Assembly: GCA_029267445.1 (NCBI GenBank)
Contig: JAJUIU010000018.1
Coordinates: 1-57,215, forward strand
DNA from: Rhodospirillaceae bacterium
Lineage (GTDB): Bacteria; Pseudomonadota; Alphaproteobacteria; Azospirillales; Azospirillaceae
DNA: 57,215 nucleotides
Direction: 5' to 3'
Part shown: piece by piece, positions 14,820 to 26,283 of the stretch
Numbering within the stretch: the first letter of the stretch is position 1
Layout of the letters: the number at the start of each line of letters is the position of its first letter
The notes under the pieces: model-generated
Database searches by the model: none
What the model saw: the letters and a program-made list of their open reading frames with translations, nothing else
Told to the model about the DNA's origin: nothing
Position numbers and translations under genes: made by a program

Positions 14820-16346
14820 GTGTCGTCTGAATGGAACCAGCGGTCCCCGCTGGCACGCTTCACCCGTATGTGCGCGGGCGCGGCGATCGCGCTCGCCATC
14901 GGCCTGGGCGCGTCCGTCGGCCCGGCCGCGGCGCAGAAGCCCGACCGCCCGTGGTCAGAGGACGTGCTCTACTTCGTCCTGCTGGACCGGTTCGCCGACG
15001 GCGATCCCGACAACAACATGGATGTCGACCTGAAGAACCCCGGCGGGTTCCAGGGCGGGGACATCGACGGGCTGATCGGACGGCTGGACGATCTGGCCGA
15101 TCTCGGCATCACGGCGATCTGGATGAACCCGGTGATGCTGAACATCCCGGGCAGCGTGAACAGCGGCCGCGATTTCGAGCATTTCGCCCATCACGGCTAC
15201 TGGGCCGAGGATTTCTCCAGGATGGACCCGCGCTTCGGGACCGAAGAGGACCTGAAACGGCTTGTGGACGAGGCGCACAAGCGCGGGATCAAGATCCTGC
15301 TCGACATCGTTTACAACCATGCCGGCTACGGCTCGGCCTACACGCGGCTGCCGAACGCCCGCGACATCCTCCGGATGGAGGAGCGGGGCACCTGCGGTCC
15401 CGAGGGCGACGACATCATCGGCTGCGTCGCCGGCCTGCCGGACTTCAAGACTGAGAAGCCCGAGGTCGCCCGCTGGCTGATCGAGAAGCAGATCCCGCTG
15501 GCCAAGGAGGCGGGGGTGGACGGCTACCGGCTCGACACGGTCAAGCATGTCCTCCCCGAATTCTGGGAGCTGCACCGCAAGATCATCGACGAGCGGCTGG
15601 GTGACGATTTCTTCCTGCTGGCGGAGTATTTCGGCGCCGACCTGAACGTCGTCGATCCCTTCTTCGAGAAGGGGGTATGGGACGCGGCGCTGGACTTCAC
15701 CTTCAAGGGTGAGACCGAGTCCTGGGTGCTGGGCCGGGGCCGCACGATCGCGTACAGCCGCTACCTCCAGAAGCGGCACAAGGTGCGGCCCGGCTACATC
15801 ATGGCCCACTACCTCTCCAGCCACGACGTGCCCATGGCGCTGGCGGAGGTGGGCGGCGATGTCGCCAAGTTCCGCCTGATGGCCGCCCTGCAGATGGCCA
15901 GCCTCGGCCTGCCGCAGATCTACTACGGGGAGGAGGTCGCCCGTCCCGGCCACGACTGGCCGGAGAACCGGACCCCGATGCCCTGGGGCAAGATGGACAT
16001 CCTGCCGGGCAAGGGGATGGAGCGGGACGAGTCCCTGCGCGACTTCTACAAGCGGATCATCGCCGCCCGGAAGGCCAACCCGGCCTTCGCCCATGGCGAC
16101 TACAAGGAGCTGTCGACCGAGGGCGACCTGCTGGTGTTCCAGCGCGCCCATGCCGACAGCGGCAACACGGTGATCGTCGCCGCAAACCGGGGCGACAAGG
16201 ACGCCACGGCGACGGTGGCGCTGCCCGCCGCATGGTCAGGCAAGACCGTGACCGACGCGATCACGGGCAAGGCCGTCGGCAAGGCGGGCGCGGAGCTGGC
16301 GCTCACCGTCCCCGGCCTGACGGCCCAGTACCTCGTCGCCAACTAG
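14820..16346 (+). CDS. Secreted alpha-amylase family (GH13) enzyme
   Basis: A GH13 glycoside hydrolase of 508 residues that would cleave starch or maltodextrins outside the cytoplasm. The N-terminus has a signal peptide (hydrophobic AIALAIGLGASVGPAAA, cleavage near AAAQK). The catalytic triad is D239 (GYRLDTVKH), E269 (LLAEYFG) and D336 (SSHD), with the conserved DIVYNHAG near residue 162. Start GTG 14820 follows GGGGGG at 5 nt spacing and gives a long n-region; ATG 14868 would give a shorter one. First gene of a plus-strand operon, with malK 12 nt downstream. It could act in the periplasm or outside the cell. Confidence 0.94.
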   Translation: MSSEWNQRSPLARFTRMCAGAAIALAIGLGASVGPAAAQKPDRPWSEDVLYFVLLDRFADGDPDNNMDVDLKNPGGFQGGDIDGLIGRLDDLADLGITAIWMNPVMLNIPGSVNSGRDFEHFAHHGYWAEDFSRMDPRFGTEEDLKRLVDEAHKRGIKILLDIVYNHAGYGSAYTRLPNARDILRMEERGTCGPEGDDIIGCVAGLPDFKTEKPEVARWLIEKQIPLAKEAGVDGYRLDTVKHVLPEFWELHRKIIDERLGDDFFLLAEYFGADLNVVDPFFEKGVWDAALDFTFKGETESWVLGRGRTIAYSRYLQKRHKVRPGYIMAHYLSSHDVPMALAEVGGDVAKFRLMAALQMASLGLPQIYYGEEVARPGHDWPENRTPMPWGKMDILPGKGMERDESLRDFYKRIIAARKANPAFAHGDYKELSTEGDLLVFQRAHADSGNTVIVAANRGDKDATATVALPAAWSGKTVTDAITGKAVGKAGAELALTVPGLTAQYLVAN

Positions 16347-16358
16347 AAGGCCCACCGC

Positions 16359-17480
16359 ATGGCCCAGATCAAGTTCGAACATGTCAGCAAGCGGTTCGGT
16401 GACGTCGCCGTCATCGAGAACCTGGACCTGCACATCCGCGACCAGGAATTCATGGTCTTCGTCGGCCCGTCGGGCTGCGGCAAGTCCACGGCGCTGCGCA
16501 TGATCGCCGGGCTGGAGGAGATCAGCGGCGGCACGCTCAGCATTGGCGACCGGGTGGTGAACGACGTCCATCCGAAGGACCGGGACGTCGCCATGGTGTT
16601 CCAGTCCTACGCCCTCTACCCGCACATGACGGTGCGCGAGAACATCGCCTTCGGCTTGAAGATCCGGAAGCTGCCGCAGGCGGAGATCGACGGGCTGGTG
16701 AACGAGGCGGCGACGATGCTCGGCCTCACCGAATACCTGGACCGCAAGCCGCGCGCCCTGTCCGGCGGCCAGCGCCAGCGCGTCGCCCTGGGCCGGGCCA
16801 TCGTGCGCAAGCCCAGCGTGTTCCTGTTCGACGAGCCCTTGTCCAACCTGGACGCCGAGCTGCGCGTCACCATGCGGGCGGAGATCAGTAAGCTCCAGCG
16901 CCGCATGAAGGTCACCACGGTCTACGTCACCCACGATCAGGTGGAGGCGATGACCATGGGCGACCGCATCGCCGTGCTGGCGCCGCTGAAGCGGCATCCG
17001 TCCGGCAACCTGATGCAGGTCGGCACGCCGCTGGAGCTTTACGACCGGCCGCAGAACCTGTTCGTCGCCCGCTTCATCGGCACGCCGTCGATGAACATCG
17101 TCGAGATGGCGGTGGACGCCGACGGCACGGCCCTGCGGTTCCACGATTTCGTGCTGCCGGTGCCGGCCGCATACCGGGGCGGGATCGGTGCCTATGCGGG
17201 CCGGAACGTCGCGGTCGGGTTCCGGCCTGAACATGTCGGCCACGCCGAGGAGCACCAGTGGGACACGATCTCCCCGATCCGGGGCGAGGTCGAGATCGTG
17301 GAGACGCTGGGCCACGAGGCAATCATCCACTTCCGCGTCGGCGGCTCCATGGTGATCGGCAAGATCCGGGGCCACGGTGTCGTGCTGCCGCGCCTGGGCG
17401 AGGCCATCGACCTCGTCGTGAAAGCCAGTTCCATCCACCTGTTCGACCCGCAGACGGAACAGCGTCTGCCCGAGGCCTGA
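16359..17480 (+). CDS. malK: Maltose/maltodextrin ABC transporter ATPase (MalK/UgpC family)
   Basis: The 373-residue protein is the nucleotide-binding subunit that drives sugar import. Walker A is GPSGCGKST (36-44), the Q-loop lies in MVFQSYALYPHMTVRENI, the signature is LSGGQRQRVALGRAIVR, Walker B is VFLFDEPLSNLDAELR and the switch His is in VYVTHDQVEAMT. A C-terminal TOBE regulatory region (about 240-370, including VGFRPEHVG) marks the carbohydrate CUT1 subfamily. This family is also used for glycerol-phosphate or polyol uptake, so maltodextrin specificity is inferred from the amylase, MalF and MalG context. Confidence 0.95.
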   Translation: MAQIKFEHVSKRFGDVAVIENLDLHIRDQEFMVFVGPSGCGKSTALRMIAGLEEISGGTLSIGDRVVNDVHPKDRDVAMVFQSYALYPHMTVRENIAFGLKIRKLPQAEIDGLVNEAATMLGLTEYLDRKPRALSGGQRQRVALGRAIVRKPSVFLFDEPLSNLDAELRVTMRAEISKLQRRMKVTTVYVTHDQVEAMTMGDRIAVLAPLKRHPSGNLMQVGTPLELYDRPQNLFVARFIGTPSMNIVEMAVDADGTALRFHDFVLPVPAAYRGGIGAYAGRNVAVGFRPEHVGHAEEHQWDTISPIRGEVEIVETLGHEAIIHFRVGGSMVIGKIRGHGVVLPRLGEAIDLVVKASSIHLFDPQTEQRLPEA

Positions 17481-17523: not shown

Positions 17524-18783
17524 ATGACGATGGTGCAGTCCCGCAGAACCCTGTTCCGTCTGGCCGGTGCCGCCCTGCTGGCGCCGCTGCTCGCGGCCGG
17601 CGCCGGCGAGGCGCTGGCGCAGCAGTCGCAGCTGACCGTCTGGCACGCCTATCGCGGCCAGGAGAAGGCCGCCTTCGAGAAGGCGGTCGCCCTGTTCAAC
17701 GAGCAGAACAAGGATGTCGTGGCGAAGCCGCTGGCGGTGCCCTACGACGCCTACGCCGACAAGATCTCCGCCGCCGTCCCGCGCGGCAGCGGGCCCGACG
17801 TCTTCATCTTCGCCCAGGATCGCCTGGGCGGCTGGATCGAGGCGGGCAACATCGTCGAGCCGGTGGACTTCTTCATCGACGACGCGGTGACCAAGCGCTT
17901 CCTGCCGAACATGATGGAGGCGGTCACCTATCGCGGCCAGGCCTACGGCCTGCCGTTCAACTACAAGCCCATCGCGCTGATCTACAACAAGAAGAACGTC
18001 AAGGCGCCGCCGAAGACCACAAGCGAGCTGGTCGCCTGGGCCAAGAAGAACACCAACGCCTCGACCGGCGCCTACGGCTTCGCCTACGCCTACAGCGACT
18101 TCTACTACCACGCCGCCCTGATGAACGCCTTCGGCGGCGGCGTCTTCGCCGACGGGGCGGGCGGCATCGCCACCCCGACCGTGAACCGGCCGGAGAACGT
18201 CAAGTCCGTCGAGCTGGTGATGAACTGGTTCAAGGACCAGGGCATCCTCCCGGCCGAGCCGTCGTCGGCCCTGATCACCTCGCTGTTCAACGAGGGCAAG
18301 GCCAACATCGTCTTCTCCGGCCCCTGGTTCATGGGCGAGATCGCCGACGGCATGGATGTCGGCATCGCGCCGCTGCCCACGGTGGACGAGGCGGGCGGCA
18401 AGCCGATGGCGCCCTGGATGACCATCGAGGGCCTCTACATCTCCGCCCAGTCCAAGAACAAGGACGCGGCCTGGAAGCTGGTGGAGTTCCTGACCACCGA
18501 CGCCGTGGCCAAGATCATGGCGGTGGAGGGCCGGCAGCAGCCGACCAACGCGGCCGTCTACAAGCTGCCCGAGGTGGCGAACGACCCGATCCTCGCCGGC
18601 TTCGCCAAGCAGGCGGAGACCGCCGTGCCGATGCCGAACTACGCGGTCATGTCGCTGATGTGGTCCCCGGTGACCACGGCGATGAACAAGATCGTCAAGG
18701 GCTCCGCCACGCCCAAGCAGGCGCTGGACGAGGCGCAGCAGACGCTGTCGACCGACATCGACGCGCTGCGCAAGAGCCGCTGA
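17524..18783 (+). CDS. malE: Periplasmic maltodextrin-binding protein (MalE-like)
   Basis: A 419-residue extracytoplasmic solute-binding protein of the CUT1/MalE type that would deliver maltodextrins to MalFGK2. The N-terminal signal contains SRRTLFRLAGAA, a possible twin-arginine motif, before a cleavage region near GEALAQQS. Typical MalE-like segments follow: LTVWHAYRGQEKAAFEKAV, GPDVFIFAQDRLG, VTYRGQAYGLPFNYKPIALIYNK and NIVFSGPWFMGEI. AAAGGAGG just before ATG 17524 is an excellent ribosome binding site, consistent with high expression. It sits 43 nt after malK and 31 nt before malF. Confidence 0.93.
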   Translation: MTMVQSRRTLFRLAGAALLAPLLAAGAGEALAQQSQLTVWHAYRGQEKAAFEKAVALFNEQNKDVVAKPLAVPYDAYADKISAAVPRGSGPDVFIFAQDRLGGWIEAGNIVEPVDFFIDDAVTKRFLPNMMEAVTYRGQAYGLPFNYKPIALIYNKKNVKAPPKTTSELVAWAKKNTNASTGAYGFAYAYSDFYYHAALMNAFGGGVFADGAGGIATPTVNRPENVKSVELVMNWFKDQGILPAEPSSALITSLFNEGKANIVFSGPWFMGEIADGMDVGIAPLPTVDEAGGKPMAPWMTIEGLYISAQSKNKDAAWKLVEFLTTDAVAKIMAVEGRQQPTNAAVYKLPEVANDPILAGFAKQAETAVPMPNYAVMSLMWSPVTTAMNKIVKGSATPKQALDEAQQTLSTDIDALRKSR

Positions 18784-18814: not shown

Positions 18815-20773
18815 ATGCGGCTTCCGGGTCTTTCGGCCGGTATCGGCCTCGTTGTCGGGGTCCTGCTCCTCGCGCTGGCGAGCCTCTGGTTCGTCGGCGC
18901 GGCGATCCAGGATTCGCGGCAGCAGGCCGAGGTCCGGAAGGCCACGATCGCCGCCATGGGCCTGGCCGACACGATCGGCCGGGTCCAGGAGCTGGGCGGT
19001 GACACGGCGGCGGTCGCCGCCGCCGGCGACGCCTACCGGCAGGCCGATCCGCTGATCCGCGACATGCGGATCGTGCGGCAGCAGGGCGCCCAGCTGCTCT
19101 ACTCCACGGCGGCCGAGGATGCGGAGAAGGGGGCGATCCCGCGTCGGCTGGTGCGGGACGAGAAGCCGCTGTTCGACCTGACGGCCGAACTCCGTTCCAA
19201 CATCGAGACGAACACCGCCGAGAACATCAAGCGGCTGGCCGAAATCCAGGTGGTCGGCCTGGGCGACCGGCTGCGGGTCACCGCCCCGGTCTTCGTCGGC
19301 GGCAACTACTGGGGCATCGCCCAGGTGGAGCGGGAGCGCACCGGCGCCCTGGCCGCCGCCGACCGGGCCTACATCCTGTGGCTCACCCTGGCCGCCCTCG
19401 CGATCTTCGCCATCGCGGCCTTCGGCATCGCCCGCGTCCTGGGCGAGGGGCGGGGTGCCCGCTGGGCCAATTTCGCGGTGGCCGCACTGCTGCTGCTGGG
19501 CGTGTCCTGGCTCTATGCGCAGACCGAGCTGACGAACGTGGCCGCGTACGAGCGGGCGCGGGGTGCGGAACTGACCGTCACCCTCAACGACGCCCGCGCC
19601 GGTGCCGCGGCCGCCCTCGCCCAGGCCGGAAGCGTTCCGCCGCGCGAGGTGGCATGGGACGTCGACAGCTTCCGCCGTCCGCTGCCTGGACTGCTGGCCG
19701 ATGGCGGCATGGACGTCGCCGCCGTCAATGCCGCGGTCGAGGCCCGGACGGACGCCGTCTCGGAAGGCCTCTGGTGGACGGTCGCCCTGTCCATCGCCGT
19801 GCTGGCCTTCTTCGCGCTGGGTGCCGCGCGGAGCCTCTGGAACACCCTGCGGGAGCACCGCAGCGCCTATCTCTACGTGGCTCCGGCGCTGCTGGGCATG
19901 CTGTTCCTGGTGTTCTTCCCCTTCAGCTACGGCGTCATCCTGTCCTTCACCGACCGGACGCTGTTCAACCAGTCCGTCCCGCTGACGGAGCTGTGGGTCG
20001 GCTTCGACAACTATGTCCGCATCCTGTCGGACGTGAACGTGCTGCGCTCCACGCCCGACGGCACGGTGGTCAACTACGAGAGCTTCTACTGGACCCTGTT
20101 CATCACGATCTGCTGGACCGTGGCGAACGTGGCGATCGGTGTCACCATCGGCCTCGCGCTCGCGCTCGTGCTGAACGTGGAGGGGCTGCGCGGCAAGGCG
20201 GTCTACCGCGTGCTGCTGATCCTGCCCTGGGCGATTCCGAACTACATCACGGCGCTGACCTGGAAGGGCATGTTCCATCCCCAGTTCGGCGTCATCAACC
20301 AGGCCATCGTGATGTTCGGCGGCGAACCCGTCGCCTGGTTCGACAGCGTATTCAGCAGCTTCATGACCGGCGTCATCACCAACGGCTGGCTCAGCTTCCC
20401 GTTCATGATGGTGGTCAGCCTGGGTGCCTTGCAGTCGATCCCGTCCGACATGTACGAGGCGGCGGAACTGGACGGTGCCTCCAAGTGGCAGCAGTTCTGG
20501 AACATCACCCTGCCGCTGCTGAAACCCGCCCTGATCCCGGCGATCATCCTGTCGGTCGTCTGGACCTTCAACATGTTCAACGTGATCTACCTGGTCAGCG
20601 GCGGCGCGCCGGCCGGGGCGAACGAAATCCTGATCACCAAGGCCTACAAGATCGCCTTCGAGCGGTACCAGTACGCCTACGCCGCCGCCTACAGCTTCGT
20701 CATCTTCCTGATCCTGCTCGGCTACGGTTACTTCCAGAACCGTGTCAGCAAGGCGACGGAACAGGTCCGGTGA
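18815..20773 (+). CDS. malF: Maltodextrin ABC permease MalF with a sensor-like N-terminal extension
   Basis: The C-terminal ~300 residues (from about 350, SAYLYVAPALLGMLFLVFF) form a normal MalF permease core, with the EAA loop EAAELDGASKWQQFWNITLP that contacts MalK. In front lie about 340 additional residues. They comprise a membrane segment at 8-28; a periplasmic region 30-185 with long charged helices followed by RLRVTAPVFVGGNYWGIAQV, reminiscent of Cache/PAS-like sensor domains; membrane segments near 186-208 and 218-236; a second periplasmic stretch 237-320; and a further membrane segment 322-345. E. coli MalF (514 residues) has its extra domain in an internal loop, not at the N-terminus. 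The sensor resemblance is my reading, not a database result. Confidence 0.88.
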   Translation: MRLPGLSAGIGLVVGVLLLALASLWFVGAAIQDSRQQAEVRKATIAAMGLADTIGRVQELGGDTAAVAAAGDAYRQADPLIRDMRIVRQQGAQLLYSTAAEDAEKGAIPRRLVRDEKPLFDLTAELRSNIETNTAENIKRLAEIQVVGLGDRLRVTAPVFVGGNYWGIAQVERERTGALAAADRAYILWLTLAALAIFAIAAFGIARVLGEGRGARWANFAVAALLLLGVSWLYAQTELTNVAAYERARGAELTVTLNDARAGAAAALAQAGSVPPREVAWDVDSFRRPLPGLLADGGMDVAAVNAAVEARTDAVSEGLWWTVALSIAVLAFFALGAARSLWNTLREHRSAYLYVAPALLGMLFLVFFPFSYGVILSFTDRTLFNQSVPLTELWVGFDNYVRILSDVNVLRSTPDGTVVNYESFYWTLFITICWTVANVAIGVTIGLALALVLNVEGLRGKAVYRVLLILPWAIPNYITALTWKGMFHPQFGVINQAIVMFGGEPVAWFDSVFSSFMTGVITNGWLSFPFMMVVSLGALQSIPSDMYEAAELDGASKWQQFWNITLPLLKPALIPAIILSVVWTFNMFNVIYLVSGGAPAGANEILITKAYKIAFERYQYAYAAAYSFVIFLILLGYGYFQNRVSKATEQVR

Positions 20774-20783
20774 GGGGGATGCC

Positions 20784-21716
20784 ATGACCGCCGTGACCGC
20801 CGCACCCGTGACGAAGGCGAAGCCCAGGGCCGAGGTTCAGACCGGCGGCCGCAAGGGCGGCAGCCATTTCTGGATCCATGTCGGTCTGATCATCTTCACC
20901 TTCTTCGCGCTCTACCCGATCCTCTGGGTGCTGACGCTGGCCTTCTCCGGCCAGCAGAGCCTGTCCATCGCCACGCTGCCGCAGGATGCGACGTTCTGGG
21001 ACCGGCTGCGGGCGATCATCCCCTGGCCGCAGCAGATCAGCCTGAAGAACTTCGTCGACGTGCTGACCGAACAGCCCTTCCTGACGTGGCTGCTGAACAG
21101 CGCCATCGTGGCGGGGCTGACCACCGTCGTCGGCGTGTTCCTGGCCTGCACGGCGGCCTACGCCTTCTCGCGCTTCCGCTTCCCCGGCCGGCAGCAGGGC
21201 ATGATGGCCTTCCTGGTCAGCCAGATGTTCCCCGGCACGCTGATGATGATCCCGCTCTACATCATCATCGTCAGCTGGCTCGGCCTCGGGAACAGCTACT
21301 TCGGCCTTGTCCTCGTCTACGCGGTCACCGCGATCCCCTTCTGCGTGTGGATGCTGAAGGGCTATTTCGACACGATCCCGATCGAGATCGAGGAGAGCGC
21401 CATCATGGACGGCGCCTCACGCGCGGTGATCTTCTGGCGCATCGTCCTGCCGCTGGCGCGGCCCGCCGTGGCCGTGACGGCGCTGTTCAGCTTCATGACC
21501 GGCTGGAACGAGTTCATCCTGGCCTCCGTGTTCATGACGGAGGAGACGCGCTACACGGCCCCGGTGGGCCTGCGCTTCTTCGTCGGCGGCTTCTCCGCCC
21601 AGTGGGGCTATTTCGCGGCCGGGTCGATCATCGTCTCGATCCCGGTCGTCATCCTCTTCCTCTATCTGCAGAAATACCTCGTGTCGGGTCTGACGGCGGG
21701 AGGTGTGAAGGGCTGA
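20784..21716 (+). CDS. malG: Maltodextrin ABC permease MalG
   Basis: The second permease subunit, 310 residues. Six membrane segments are visible, starting at FWIHVGLIIFTFFALYPILWVLTL. The EAA motif ESAIMDGASRAVIFWRIVLP couples to MalK, and the C-terminus YLVSGLTAGGVKG is the typical MalG ending that reaches into the ATPase. ATG 20784 follows GAGGGGG at good spacing. Upstream in-frame codons overlap malF and lack a ribosome site. A 9-bp hairpin follows the stop. Confidence 0.95.
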   Translation: MTAVTAAPVTKAKPRAEVQTGGRKGGSHFWIHVGLIIFTFFALYPILWVLTLAFSGQQSLSIATLPQDATFWDRLRAIIPWPQQISLKNFVDVLTEQPFLTWLLNSAIVAGLTTVVGVFLACTAAYAFSRFRFPGRQQGMMAFLVSQMFPGTLMMIPLYIIIVSWLGLGNSYFGLVLVYAVTAIPFCVWMLKGYFDTIPIEIEESAIMDGASRAVIFWRIVLPLARPAVAVTALFSFMTGWNEFILASVFMTEETRYTAPVGLRFFVGGFSAQWGYFAAGSIIVSIPVVILFLYLQKYLVSGLTAGGVKG

Positions 21717-21805: not shown

Positions 21806-22609
21806 ATGAGCACCAAGTACACCAAACTCCTGGCGGGCCTGATGGGCGCCGCCATGATCGCCGTGGCGGGCCAGGCGGCCGCGGTGGAGTTCAAGGACCC
21901 GACCGGCGACGACAACGGCCCGGGCACCTACACCTATCCGACCGACGGCGCCTACCTGAAGGGCGCCTTCGACCTGACCTCCTTCTCGGCGGAGAAGTCG
22001 GGCAGCGACATCGACTTCAAGGCCACCATGGCCAGCTCGCTGAACGACCCGTGGGGCATGGGCGGCGGCTTCGCCACCCAGATGGTCTTCGTCTTCATCA
22101 ACACCGGGACCGGCAAGCACAAGGACGGCATCCCCGGCCTGAACATCCAGCTCGAGCCGGGCTGGGACAAGGCGGTGATCCTGTCCCCGCAGAAGAAGGC
22201 CCGCGTGGAGTCCGAGATCCGCAACAGCGCCGCCGCCATGGCCGGCGACATCCTCGTCCCCGGCCGCACCAAGGGGTCGGGCAAGACGATCTCCGGCTCG
22301 GTGAAGGCGGCGGACATCGGCACCAGCGACCCGTCGACCTGGAGCTACCAGGTGGTCGTGCAGTCGAACGAGGGCTTCCCGGCCAAGGGCGACCTGCTGA
22401 CCCGCCGCGTCAACGAGTTCGAGGGCCAGCACCGCTTCGGCGGCGGCAACGACGGCATGTGCGATCCGCACGTGATGGACATCCTGGCCGGCAGCGGTGC
22501 CGGCGGGGCGGACGAGGTCGCGGCGCAGCACGCGGCCCTCAAGGCCTTCGAGTGCACGGATGACGGCGAGGCGAAGAAGCTGGCCGTCGTCCCGATGATC
22601 AAGAAGTAA
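21806..22609 (+). CDS. Secreted protein resembling the glucodextranase C-terminal (DOMON-like) domain
   Basis: A 267-residue exported protein. The signal peptide ends near QAAA at residue 26. The remainder resembles the Glucodextran_C/DOMON-like beta-sandwich found at the end of glucodextranases and some amylases: FDLTSFSAEKSG, ATQMVFVFINTGTGKHKDG, GWDKAVILSP and STWSYQVVVQS. No catalytic residues are evident. Glycan binding at the cell surface or in the periplasm is inferred from the family and the operon. Two Cys near the C-terminus (MCDPH and FECTD) may form a disulphide. A paralogue lies at 24979-26283. ATG 21806 is chosen, because ATG 21801 reads into a stop after one codon. Confidence 0.78.
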   Translation: MSTKYTKLLAGLMGAAMIAVAGQAAAVEFKDPTGDDNGPGTYTYPTDGAYLKGAFDLTSFSAEKSGSDIDFKATMASSLNDPWGMGGGFATQMVFVFINTGTGKHKDGIPGLNIQLEPGWDKAVILSPQKKARVESEIRNSAAAMAGDILVPGRTKGSGKTISGSVKAADIGTSDPSTWSYQVVVQSNEGFPAKGDLLTRRVNEFEGQHRFGGGNDGMCDPHVMDILAGSGAGGADEVAAQHAALKAFECTDDGEAKKLAVVPMIKK

Positions 22610-22672: not shown

Positions 22673-24793
22673 ATGAAAAAGAGGTTGTTGTGCGGGGCCG
22701 CCCTGCTGGGGCTTGCCGTCGCGGGGACCGGGGGGCCTGCGGCCGCCCAGGGTTCCGGAAACGTGCAGTGGTTCGGCACCATCTACATCAAGTTCCTGGA
22801 CGGGAACGAGCGTGAGCAGAATGGCCTGCAGAACGCGTCCGAAGGCAACTCGGGCGACCAGGGCCAGGGCATCGAGGCCGACCTCCAGCTGCGGGCGAAC
22901 GTGTCCCGCCAGGTGGAAGCCGGCGTGCGCATCCAGAGCCGGTTCAACAAGAACTACTGGGCCAACTTCGGCGGCTTCGGCGCCGACGAGGAGGACCCGC
23001 TTTCCAACCAGTACATCAAGCTGCGCGGCGCCTATGTCCGTCTGACGCCGGGCTACGAGTGGGTCGACAGCATCTTCGTCGGCACCAACGACTTCGGTCT
23101 GTGGGACCCGCTGACGCTGGGCAAGATCCGCTATATCGATCGCGACAACGCGGCGGGTGTCATCGTCCAGGGCACGGCCGGAAGCGCCAAGTGGGACTTC
23201 GCCCGCATGTCGCTGCCGAAGCTGTACGCCGGTCCGCGCTTCAGCACGGGCGACTTCTTCGCCCAGGACGCGGCCTGGGTCAGCCAGATCAAGGTCGCGG
23301 CCACCCCGACGTTCAACGCCGGTGTGATCGGTCTGGTCGTGGACGACAACGAGCGCTCCACCACCGACAACGACACGCGTGACGGCCGCGACGACACCGA
23401 CCGGTACAGCAACTATGTCGGTGCCGTGAAGGCGCAGTTCACGGGTATCGAGAACCTCGACATCAGCGGCTCGGTCTACTACTCCGAGCTGAACGTCGAG
23501 AACGCCATCATCGGCTGCGAGGCGTCCATCAACGGCAACTGCCGCTTCAGCCCGACGCTGAACCGCGACGCCGACGACTGGGCCGCCTTCCTGAACGTCG
23601 AGGTCGGCGAGGTTCTGCCGAACTTCACCATGGCGGCGCAGCTGTTCCACATCGGCGCCGACTACCAGTCGATCCTTGCCGCCCGCCGCGAGGCGGACGT
23701 CCTGCTGACCGAGGGTCGCGAGGGCTTCTGGGCCTGGGAGCGTCCGGACTACAACTTCGGCAACCCGGCCAACCAGAACTCCATCGACGGCATCGGCTAT
23801 GGCGGCTGGAACGGCCACATGGACCAGGTCGTGGCGCTGGCCGCCGAGAACGCGCTCACCGACTTCGACGAGCGCGCGGCGGAGAGCGTCATCGGCTGGC
23901 GCGGCGCCACGCTGGTTCCGCGTCTGACCATCGGCGATCTGGAACTGCGCGGCGAGGTGTCGTGGATCGACTACGACACCAACTGGCAGGCCTGCGGCGG
24001 GTCCGACAAGGACATCGCCTGCGGCAAGTATCCGCGGTTCGAGGGTAACCGCGGCTGGGGTCTGGGCGGCGACAACCGCTCGCCCTTCGCGCCGTACCAG
24101 GACAAGGAGACCTGGATCATGGCCCTCAACGGCAGCTACCTGGCCGACATCGGCTCGGGTCTGCAGCTGGCGGGCCGGATCAAGTACATCCGCGACACGG
24201 ACGACCGCGTCACCAACGCCGGCAACCTGCTCGACGCCTACAACGAGGCGATCGACGTGTTCGATCCGGGTGCGGGCTTCGGCAACACGCCGAGCGGCTT
24301 CCTCGCCGCCAACCCGACTTGGCTGGCACTGCCGGCGGCACAGCGCGCCGTCACCAGCGTGAACGACGACGACCGCGAGGCCGATTACTGGACCATCGCG
24401 GGCTCGGCCGGCTACCAGCTGACCCAGGACCTGTTCGGCCGATTCGTCTACGAGTACCAGTTCGTGGATCTCCTCGACGGCACGGTCAACGTCCGCCCGG
24501 TCGGCCTTGGCTTCGAAGGCTCCAACGCCTTCGGCTGGACCGAGTACCAGACGGGCGAGCACTCGGCGCACAAGTTCGCGCTGCAGGGCTCGTACTTCCT
24601 GTCGGGCCTCGAGGTCGGCGCCGACGTGCAGTGGATCTTCGGCGAGTACGATCCGAAGTTCATCGCGGGCACGGGCCAGACCATCCAGCGCACCGCCGCC
24701 GGCGAAGTCATCACCCCCCTGGGCAACATCGCCCAGCGCGCGGTGGACTTCGAGGTCTACCGCATGAAGGTGTTCATGAAGGTCCAGTTCTGA
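22673..24793 (+). CDS. Large outer-membrane beta-barrel protein, candidate maltodextrin channel
   Basis: A 706-residue exported protein with a cleavable signal (KKRLLCGAALLGLAVAG, cleavage near PAAAQG). Alternating hydrophobic and polar strands rich in aromatic residues run throughout, and the C-terminus YRMKVFMKVQF ends in Phe, the classic outer-membrane assembly signal. Asp/Asn-rich loops (for example DDNERSTTDNDTRDGRDDTD) look extracellular. I do not recognise a named porin family, and at 706 residues it is larger than LamB (~420). Its place at the end of the transporter operon suggests maltodextrin passage, which is inference. AAAGGAGAGG before the ATG is a good ribosome site. Confidence 0.8.
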   Translation: MKKRLLCGAALLGLAVAGTGGPAAAQGSGNVQWFGTIYIKFLDGNEREQNGLQNASEGNSGDQGQGIEADLQLRANVSRQVEAGVRIQSRFNKNYWANFGGFGADEEDPLSNQYIKLRGAYVRLTPGYEWVDSIFVGTNDFGLWDPLTLGKIRYIDRDNAAGVIVQGTAGSAKWDFARMSLPKLYAGPRFSTGDFFAQDAAWVSQIKVAATPTFNAGVIGLVVDDNERSTTDNDTRDGRDDTDRYSNYVGAVKAQFTGIENLDISGSVYYSELNVENAIIGCEASINGNCRFSPTLNRDADDWAAFLNVEVGEVLPNFTMAAQLFHIGADYQSILAARREADVLLTEGREGFWAWERPDYNFGNPANQNSIDGIGYGGWNGHMDQVVALAAENALTDFDERAAESVIGWRGATLVPRLTIGDLELRGEVSWIDYDTNWQACGGSDKDIACGKYPRFEGNRGWGLGGDNRSPFAPYQDKETWIMALNGSYLADIGSGLQLAGRIKYIRDTDDRVTNAGNLLDAYNEAIDVFDPGAGFGNTPSGFLAANPTWLALPAAQRAVTSVNDDDREADYWTIAGSAGYQLTQDLFGRFVYEYQFVDLLDGTVNVRPVGLGFEGSNAFGWTEYQTGEHSAHKFALQGSYFLSGLEVGADVQWIFGEYDPKFIAGTGQTIQRTAAGEVITPLGNIAQRAVDFEVYRMKVFMKVQF

Positions 24794-24834: not shown

Positions 24835-24978
24835 GCTTCCCGCCACACCCCGTTTCGGCCGTCACGGCCGTTGCCCCGCGACAGACGGGGCCGCATTCGT
24901 TAGATGATTGGTCCAGGTGCTATTGAACGGGCCCGCGTCCGCATTTCCGGGCGCGGCCGATTTCGGAGGGTCTCTCCC

Positions 24979-26283
24979 GTGCGCGTGCGTGCTTTTCGCG
25001 GTTTCCTGCTGGGCGCCGCCGCCCTGGCGATCGTCGGCGGCGCCTTCGCCGCTTCGGCCCAGAGCAATATCACCCTTTTCACCATGCAGGACGCCCGGGG
25101 CGACGATGTCGGCGCCGGTGACCTGCTGTATCCCGACCGCCCGGATTTCGAGCGCGGCGACCTGGACCTGCTCAGCCTGTCGGCGGAGATGGCCGACGGC
25201 GGCACCTGGTTCACGGCCAGCTTCGGCGGCGCCATCCGCGATCCGGCCGACCAGCGCGGGGAGATCGGGCCGGAGCGGCTGGACCGGGTGGCCCGTCACG
25301 GCTTCTACACCCTCAACCTCGACATCTACATCGACACGGACCGCAAGCCCGGTTCGGGCAGCACGGCGACCGTGCCCGGCCGTGGCGTGCAGGTCGACCG
25401 GCGCGACGCCTGGGAGAAGGCGATCATCCTGACGCCCCGGCCGGAGATCGCGCGAACCCTGATGGTGGGCAACGCCCGCCGCGTGCTGGAGGAGCAGCGT
25501 CGCGCCCAGGTCGGCAATGTCAGCGGCGACGACTACCGGAACATCGAGCAGGTCGTCGATCAGACGGTGGACCAGCGCTACTTCTTCCCGACTCGCGTCC
25601 AGGTCCGGTCCAAGGAGATCCGCTTCTTCGTCCCCGACAGCTTCCTGGGCGGAAAGGCCAATCCCGCCTGGTCCTACACGGCGTTCGTGACCGGCGCCAA
25701 CGTGCAGCCGCGCCAGCGCCTGCTGGACATGCCCTTCAAGGACGAGGCGTTCGCCGTGATGCAGCAGCAGGCGGGGCCGGGCCGCAGCGCCGACCGTTTC
25801 GGCATCCGCCCGTCCGCCGACCCGGCGCAGCCGGCCATCGTGGACGTGCTGACGACCGATCCCGGCCTTCAGGCCCGCATGCTGCGGGACTATGACGTGG
25901 TCGCCGGACGTCAGCCGCGCCTGGTCGGTGTGGTGCCCACGGGCCGGAACCAGACCAGTTGGGAACCGCACCAGAGCCCCGCCCGCGTGGCGGGTGCGAC
26001 CGGCGCCGCCGGTGCCGCACCCGAGCCGCGCCCCTTCACGCCCAGCGAACGGGACGCCGCCGCCGCCCTGTCCGGCGCGCCGATCCTGCCGGGTCCGGCG
26101 GCCGACATTCCGGCGGCCGGGAGTGCCGCGACCGGCACGGGCCTTGGCCTCGCGCCGTCCGTCGGCGGGGAGCGCAAGACCGTGGCCCAGCGCCTGCGGG
26201 AGCTGGCCGAGCTGCGGCAGCAGAACCTGATCACCGAGGAGGAGTATCAGGACGCGCGCCGCCGGGTGCTTTCCGGCATCTGA
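24979..26283 (+). CDS. Secreted glucodextranase-C-like protein with a C-terminal SHOCT-like tail
   Basis: A 434-residue exported protein with signal FRGFLLGAAALAIVGGAFAASAQ. Residues 28-250 parallel the protein at 21806-22609, with LDLLSLSAEMADGG, LNLDIYIDTDRKPG, AWEKAIILTP and PAWSYTAFVTG in the same order. A low-complexity Ala/Pro-rich linker follows (about 330-395). The last 35 residues (QRLRELAELRQQNLITEEEY, then DARRRVLSGI) are a SHOCT-type helical hairpin. Start GTG 24979 is preferred because CGGAGGG lies 8 nt upstream and the signal peptide then has normal length. ATG 24904 in the same frame would add 25 Arg-rich residues. It follows the operon after a hairpin and may be transcribed separately. 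Confidence 0.75.
   Translation: MRVRAFRGFLLGAAALAIVGGAFAASAQSNITLFTMQDARGDDVGAGDLLYPDRPDFERGDLDLLSLSAEMADGGTWFTASFGGAIRDPADQRGEIGPERLDRVARHGFYTLNLDIYIDTDRKPGSGSTATVPGRGVQVDRRDAWEKAIILTPRPEIARTLMVGNARRVLEEQRRAQVGNVSGDDYRNIEQVVDQTVDQRYFFPTRVQVRSKEIRFFVPDSFLGGKANPAWSYTAFVTGANVQPRQRLLDMPFKDEAFAVMQQQAGPGRSADRFGIRPSADPAQPAIVDVLTTDPGLQARMLRDYDVVAGRQPRLVGVVPTGRNQTSWEPHQSPARVAGATGAAGAAPEPRPFTPSERDAAAALSGAPILPGPAADIPAAGSAATGTGLGLAPSVGGERKTVAQRLRELAELRQQNLITEEEYQDARRRVLSGI

Follow-up and report, generated by a model that had tools for sequence, protein, structure and literature searches.

A MalF-Type Permease Carrying an N-Terminal Module Predicted to Fold Like a Cache/PDC Sensor Domain

Introduction

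Why should the permease subunit of a sugar importer carry several hundred residues ahead of its permease core, and what could these residues do? The question is raised by a malF-type permease gene with an N-terminal extension, found at 18815..20773 on the plus strand of the window, i.e., the whole stretch of 57,215 nucleotides of a Rhodospirillaceae bacterium (contig JAJUIU010000018.1) that was analysed here. The gene is a single open frame of 652 aa that starts with ATG and is identified by the PF00528 and MalF profiles. An original prediction, made from the sequence alone, described it as a MalF permease fused to a sensor-like module that could gate uptake, bind MalE or report substrate to a partner.

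Results

A MalF Core behind a Long Extension

PF00528 (BPD_transp_1) covers residues 442–645 of the protein (E 1.3e-22, 80.9 bits, cut-off 26.4), and it is the only family that Pfam lists over the whole protein, so that no signalling output domain was found by this search. The NCBIfam MalF profile (positions 263–517) covers residues 393–647, and the E. coli-type MalF equivalog NF008232 scores about 183.5–189 bits, which is below its curated cut-off of 392. E. coli-type MalF structures align to residues 423–634, plus a weak piece at 347–386. Because of the span of the MalF profile and of these structure alignments, including the weak piece, we place the start of the core at about residue 345 (residues 345–652, 19847..20770, plus strand; MalF profile, PF00528 and MalF structure matches), close to residue 350 as originally proposed. 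The EAA loop, which is the contact to MalK, is found by pattern match at residues 548–567 (20456..20515, plus strand), with EAAELDGASKWQQFWNITLP at residue 548; the positions of the pattern beyond EAA-X3-G are those commonly used for this loop. The EAA-X3-G form itself is given in the available text of PMC3150292. The first core loop comprises 50 residues (377–426, hydropathy scan), which rules out an E. coli-like P2 domain of about 180 aa at this place. Apart from its N-terminus, the window permease is an ordinary MalF relative.

The core is preceded by an extension of 344 residues with four membrane segments and two periplasmic stretches, the layout that had been read from the sequence and that a simple hydropathy scan of the window MalF and five relatives bears out. 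All features are on the plus strand. Segment 1 spans residues 9–27 (18839..18895; predicted helix 6–59), segment 2 residues 187–205 (19373..19429; predicted helix 185–209), segment 3 residues 217–235 (19463..19519; predicted helix 213–270) and segment 4 residues 319–337 (19769..19825; predicted helix 301–334). The stretches between them, 159 and 83 residues in the hydropathy scan, would both be periplasmic provided that the MalF core keeps its usual orientation. The first holds the putative Cache/PDC-like domain (residues 31–183, 18905..19363; AlphaFold2, Foldseek and VIA-align), which according to hydropathy is flanked by two membrane helices in the fashion of a receptor, its extracytoplasmic placement following from the orientation of the core. 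The second (residues 236–318, 19520..19768; hydropathy scan) is predicted to be mainly helical, with pLDDT below 50 at residues 276–289. Segments 2 and 3 (TM2–TM3) are joined by a short loop, 6–21 residues long across the six scanned proteins. The scan also called at least one weaker segment (scores 0.96–1.63) inside the stretches of four out of five relatives; such segments were left out of the membrane count.

Occurrence among Pseudomonadota

The distribution of the extension was sampled within the Pseudomonadota. With the N-terminus as query, matches were found in 2 of 39 relatives, 1 of 385 genomes of the class and 4 of 82 genomes of the family (window genome counted), two of the four family matches being Aerophototrophica crusticola (G452) and Oleisolibacter albus (G451); with the core as query these four family genomes were found again at E ≤ 1e-40. 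At this threshold 45 of 398 genomes of the phylum sample match the core, but no more than three of the cores, those of the window, G719 and G788, reach 70% identity. Absences in the class and phylum samples are soft, because at most 5 candidates were scored per genome. In the order of G719 a core of 69–71% identity is present in 6 of 120 genomes, and in the surroundings of G788 the core is present in 10 of 150 family, 1 of 150 order and 1 of 175 class genomes (G788 counted). This gives a total of 20 cores that are at least 69% identical (window included), spread over three families and two classes.

The upstream part is complete in 18 of these 20 genes, and all 18 have the long extension in the same frame; the genes of G1137 and G1125 are truncated at contig ends and retain the last 127 and 70 residues of the extension, respectively. 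As 17 complete genes from separate genomes carry the long extension in addition to that of the window, its recurrence makes it more than a chance feature. The worry that accompanied the original prediction, i.e., that homologues might have the extension as a separate gene joined here by assembly error, is thereby removed, and the family-wide search finds the extension on a MalF core in every complete member. The next core found after the 20, that of G968, is 46% identical to the core of the window and has a clearly different extension. Another core of 46% identity, that of Cetobacterium, belongs to a minimal permease of 296 aa as calculated from the gene coordinates.

Homology of the extension is plain within the family of the window (45–46% identity), and a four-row profile finds the G788 extension at E 2.8e-35. 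The window N-terminus finds G955 at E 8e-6 by tblastn; G719 is without a match at E ≤ 1e-5 in this search and is not among the matches of the four-row profile at E ≤ 0.1. Homology in the G719 group is therefore weaker, and it is argued from the place of the extension before a 70% identical core, from the four hydrophobic segments in order and from a common signature (see below). In a further 21 genomes of the phylum sample the profile matched short pieces (11.8–21.5 bits), which were set aside as likely chance. In the window genome no second copy of the domain was found, the N-terminal query matching the MalF gene alone with 18 of 18 candidates scored, and the profile of the N-terminus likewise with 5 of 27 candidates scored. 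No match to the N-terminus was found in 72,556 plasmid records; with the whole MalF as query, all 2534 matching plasmid records were below 60% identity.

A Predicted Sensor-Type Fold

In sequence searches of Pfam, NCBIfam and PDB the extension (the N-terminal 350 residues) has no convincing match. The candidates for the N-terminus that were considered and rejected are NCBIfam perm_prefix_1 (E 0.023, 14.5 bits against a cut-off of 30), TetR_C_34 as the best Pfam match (E 0.17) and PDB 3rd5 (E 0.019, residues 237–311). Over the 18 complete members there are weak matches to Wzy_C (7 members, best E 0.012) and DUF4131 (8 members, best E 0.022), and an unconvincing one to Diacid_rec in 1 of 18 (E 0.13). 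The 22 Pfam families listed for these members at E up to 10, a range in which the HMMER filters remove most matches above E ~0.1, include no Cache profile. A profile of the 18 members finds three PDB chains at E 0.23–0.46, the first being a PDE10A chain matched over the strand pair described below.

AlphaFold2 was run on residues 1–346 of the window protein with a 3-row alignment. The best model has a mean pLDDT of 73.7 and a pTM of 0.69, the five models spanning 47.6–73.7, and its weaker zone is residues 91–150, where pLDDT blocks average 39–69. It consists of helices 6–59 and 64–77, strands 81–90 and 93–97, helices 99–105 and 114–132 and strands 145–148, 152–161 and 164–174, after which the second membrane helix follows at 185–209. 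Residues 30–182 are thus modelled in the order of a sensor domain, i.e., long helix, helix, two strands, helices and three strands, and not as random helices, and the stretch VTAPVFVGGNYWGIAQV (residues 155–171), in which a strand pattern had been noticed, coincides with the neighbouring predicted strands 152–161 and 164–174. In the model two long helices make up the second stretch; the link between them (276–289) is of low confidence and overlaps the motif WDxDx[YF]xRP. A full-length AlphaFold2 model (3 rows) has a mean pLDDT of 50 and reproduces the N-terminal elements of the 1–346 model; with about 30 in the core it is too poor and was therefore used neither for the core nor for the packing of the module.

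Foldseek with the extension model gave no match at E ≤ 0.001, and its rows of top probability are mostly sensor domains (CqsR with E 0.015, Tlp3, PacA and Mlp24), while a LOV2 fusion, MacB and PDE6 are also included among the rows of low probability. VIA-align, which scored 996 of the candidates supplied by Foldseek, placed TlpQ at Z 12.1 (124 residues, rmsd 2.8), PctC at 11.3, WalK at 11.0 (124 of 146 residues) and CitA at 10.2. Judged from their titles, most of the 50 rows are the ligand-binding or extracellular parts of chemoreceptors and sensor kinases, with a few that are not obviously sensor domains, e.g., 4f3e at rank 49. As a guide, the best Z in the absence of a clear match is typically 7–8, but about 14 for mostly helical models; for helix-rich models a level of about 13 is advised, and the top Z of 12.1 falls short of it. 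WalK and CitA are classed here as single-Cache/PDC domains, and TlpQ, PctC and Tlp3 as dCache domains. Taken as a prediction, the AlphaFold2, Foldseek and VIA-align results support the earlier proposal of a Cache/PAS-like first periplasmic stretch, residues 30–182 of the window MalF being predicted to fold like a Cache/PDC sensor domain.

A Probable Single Gain, and Purifying Selection in Close Pairs

A maximum-likelihood tree of the core was built from 37 rows, the 20 members and 17 outgroup rows picked from loci in hand. A branch with support 100/99 separates the 20 member cores from the other rows. Support for uniting the two alphaproteobacterial groups is 91/84, and the program warns of long outgroup branches. 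The tree is compatible with what was probably a single gain, followed by sparse retention or by transfer.

The Cache part evolves faster than the core. For the Cache part, identity to the window falls from 52–53% (three family members) through 37% (G788) to 25% (G719), i.e., 25–53% overall; the corresponding values for the core are 88–89%, 71% and 70% (70–89%). In nine within-clade pairs dN/dS is 0.08–0.38 for the Cache part and 0.01–0.13 for the core, and the Cache part is under purifying selection in these close pairs. The TM2–TM3 region has an omega of 0.24–0.73 in seven of the nine pairs, with one value of 0.04 and one that is not computable. The pair G000–G012 gave 0.46 for the Cache part, 0.16 for the core and 0.81 for the second stretch; here constraint looks weaker, unless the simple dN/dS method used gives too low an estimate of synonymous change.

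Two motifs stand out. All 18 complete members share the signature RxLx3EKxL[FY]D (residues 110–121, 19142..19177, plus strand), with the charged residues R110, E116, K117 and D121 invariant throughout and situated between strand 2 and strand 3; it is on this side that Cache domains typically bind their ligands. WDxDx[YF]xRP (residues 281–289, 19655..19681, plus strand) is present in 12 of 18 members and absent in the six f180 members, whose stretches, the second one included, are shortened. By pattern scan RxW[YFWL], which we take to be one piece of the amino-acid-binding Cache motif, is missing in 18 of 18 members, and its absence may weakly disfavour an amino acid as ligand.

Gene Surroundings

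The extended malF lies in a mal operon, and all genes that follow are on the plus strand. It is preceded by genes for an alpha-amylase family protein (14820..16346; PF00128 E 2e-48, putative signal peptide by eye), a malK-type ATPase (16359..17480; PF00005 and PF17912) and a malE-type binding protein (17524..18783; PF01547, the GanS and MalE profiles both scoring below cut-off). It is followed by a malG-type permease gene with an ATG start (20784..21716; PF00528, MalG profile below cut-off) and by genes for a Glucodextran_C-type binding module (21806..22609; PF09985 E 1.3e-51), a porin-like protein of 706 aa (22673..24793; a porin by eye, without a Pfam match) and a Glucodextran_C protein with a SHOCT-like C-terminal tail just under cut-off (24904..26283; PF09985 E 1.9e-29). 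The porin-like gene thus sits between two Glucodextran_C-type genes; in G012, Aerophototrophica and G788 it is likewise conserved next to the importer. Upstream of the operon, on the opposite strand, are genes for a glycogen branching enzyme and a 4-alpha-glucanotransferase.

The order malK-malE-malF-malG is kept in all six loci examined, and the order from amylase to second Glucodextran_C gene is common to the window, G012, Aerophototrophica (L007) and G788. In Oleisolibacter the four mal genes are followed by glucose-6-phosphate dehydrogenase genes, the window amylase, Glucodextran_C and porin genes being without a match in 20 kb; a literature search found nothing that links Oleisolibacter with maltose. 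In the G719 locus the four mal genes, in the order malK-malE-malF-malG, are accompanied by an RpiR-type regulator, an amylase-family gene and Entner-Doudoroff genes; the window Glucodextran_C and porin genes have no match in the 17–20 kb examined. Among the annotated frames of these loci, which are a subset of all frames, there are no two-component, sensor kinase or chemoreceptor genes. From its gene surroundings maltodextrin is the most likely substrate of the importer.

Discussion

The structural half of the original prediction, i.e., the Cache-like prediction and the link to MalF and a mal operon, is supported by the results; the functional half is a proposal. It is conceivable, at somewhat less than an even chance, that the extension is a periplasmic regulatory module that acts in cis on the importer. 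According to this proposal the MalF of a maltodextrin-type ABC importer would, probably once, have gained an N-terminal module with the order TM1, Cache/PDC-like domain, TM2, TM3, helical periplasmic stretch and TM4 ahead of the six-helix core. The Cache-like domain would bind a small molecule or loaded MalE in the periplasm, the long first helix, which is continuous with TM1, and TM2 would shift, the neighbouring helices would relay this shift to the permease, and the relay would tune when MalFGK2 takes substrate or hydrolyses ATP. The permease is the simplest output because no cytoplasmic signalling part was found, because the TM2–TM3 loops are so short and because the fusion is direct. Cis regulation is further supported by the presence of the module on one group of MalF cores, and in the accessible text of PMC10710835 transporters with fused regulatory domains are a common theme. 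The predicted sensor-type fold between two membrane helices, the invariant charged residues of the signature and the low omega of the Cache part in close pairs count in its favour as well. What counts against it is the missing Pfam Cache match, Foldseek and VIA-align scores short of the usual levels, the shallow alignment and low-confidence zone of the model, and the fast divergence of the domain. The more specific idea of a sensor and transporter in one protein, in which a Cache-type domain built into the permease gates sugar uptake in cis without a kinase or gene regulation, is more tentative.

In our ranking cis regulation comes first and docking second, nearly as likely. As a docking platform the extension would be a relocated stand-in for P2 that holds MalE, or would hold the periplasmic amylase and Glucodextran_C proteins, the Cache fold then serving for protein binding and not for sensing. 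This is a serious possibility, if a doubtful one: P2 is absent here, the core loop being 50 residues long compared to the ~180-residue periplasmic domain of E. coli (PMC2246101, partial text), E. coli P2 touches MalE (PMC3150292, partial text) and the window operon encodes further carbohydrate-active proteins that are likely exported. Against this, the minimal MalF of Cetobacterium has neither P2 nor the module, and a dock is therefore not always required; moreover, G719 and Oleisolibacter keep the extension in loci that lack matches to the window Glucodextran_C and porin genes (17–20 kb examined).

An unlikely reading is that the extension serves structure or stability, its helices bracing the permease and the Cache fold being a passive spacer under weak constraint. 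Rapid change, above all in TM2–TM3 and the second stretch, and the shortened stretches of the f180 members speak for such a spacer, and fast evolution together with the G000–G012 omega values could reflect weak constraint on the domain. What speaks against a mere spacer is the RxLx3EKxL[FY]D signature, the omega of 0.08–0.38 of the Cache part in close pairs and the retention of the extension, the latter and the signature both being found in every complete member.

That MalF is a transceptor, which senses sugar and passes a signal via its membrane helices to a kinase or chemoreceptor partner, is in keeping with the receptor-like predicted fold and topology, and yet very improbable. Pfam finds no cytoplasmic output domain over the whole protein and two-component genes are absent among the annotated neighbours (a subset of frames), which together speak against reporting to a partner, and TM2–TM3 loops of 6–21 residues in six proteins point in the same direction. 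A chance frame, or an assembly fusion of two genes, was rejected as next to impossible in view of the same-frame long extension in 18 separate genomes of three families.

A domain of sensor fold on the periplasmic side of a permease would open the control of import from the periplasm to direct tests, and the predicted fold hints that certain importers may sense signals, or be controlled, from beyond the inner membrane. In the literature searched, mostly top-ranked titles, no description was found of an ABC permease with a Cache or other sensor-fold domain on its outer side, and the available text of PMC10710835, a review of transporter control, contains no word beginning with "Cache" (text search). 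The control of ABC importers described in that text is by cytoplasmic-side domains or partners, and among the fused domains are C2 of MetNI and the C-terminal domain of ModC (PMC10710835). Both belong to the ATPase subunit, and their ligand is the substrate that is imported, whereas the module of the window is periplasmic and located on the permease. To the sensor domains of WalK, CitA, TlpQ, PctC and Tlp3 the likeness lies in the predicted fold of residues 30–182 and in the two flanking membrane helices; the difference is that Cache receptors join this domain to a kinase or chemoreceptor signalling domain, and that the window protein joins it to a permease and has no Pfam Cache match.

Among the mal permeases themselves, E. 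coli MalF has the same permease core with an EAA loop, the partners MalE, MalG and MalK, and it likewise adds further membrane helices and a periplasmic domain to the minimal core. It has eight helices, with the 180-aa P2 domain between helices 3 and 4 (available text of PMC2246101), P2 being residues 91–271 (available text of PMC3150292). P2 is thus placed inside the TM3–TM4 loop, whereas the two stretches of the window protein precede the core and lie between four extra helices; the contrast with an internal-loop domain that was drawn originally holds, as the matching loop has 50 residues here (cf. PMC2246101, partial text). The related MalF of G968 (L071 248-2955; 486 aa) has its own N-terminal extension, by eye a signal-peptide-like start, about 140 residues and one membrane segment, and additional hydrophobic segments are also present at the N-terminus of the neighbouring MalG (416 aa), which is another decoration of this permease type. 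That a mal permease can carry a large additional hydrophilic domain is already known from MalG1 and MalG2 of Thermotogales, in which an insert of about 500 aa lies between TM1 and TM2, its function being called unknown there (PMC2246101, in the text available); this is one insert and it is carried by MalG, whereas the module of the window is on MalF. Permeases of the mal family have therefore been extended in several ways, by P2 in E. coli MalF, by the insert of Thermotogales MalG and by the module described here, and these multiple extensions bear on the role of the E. coli P2 domain.
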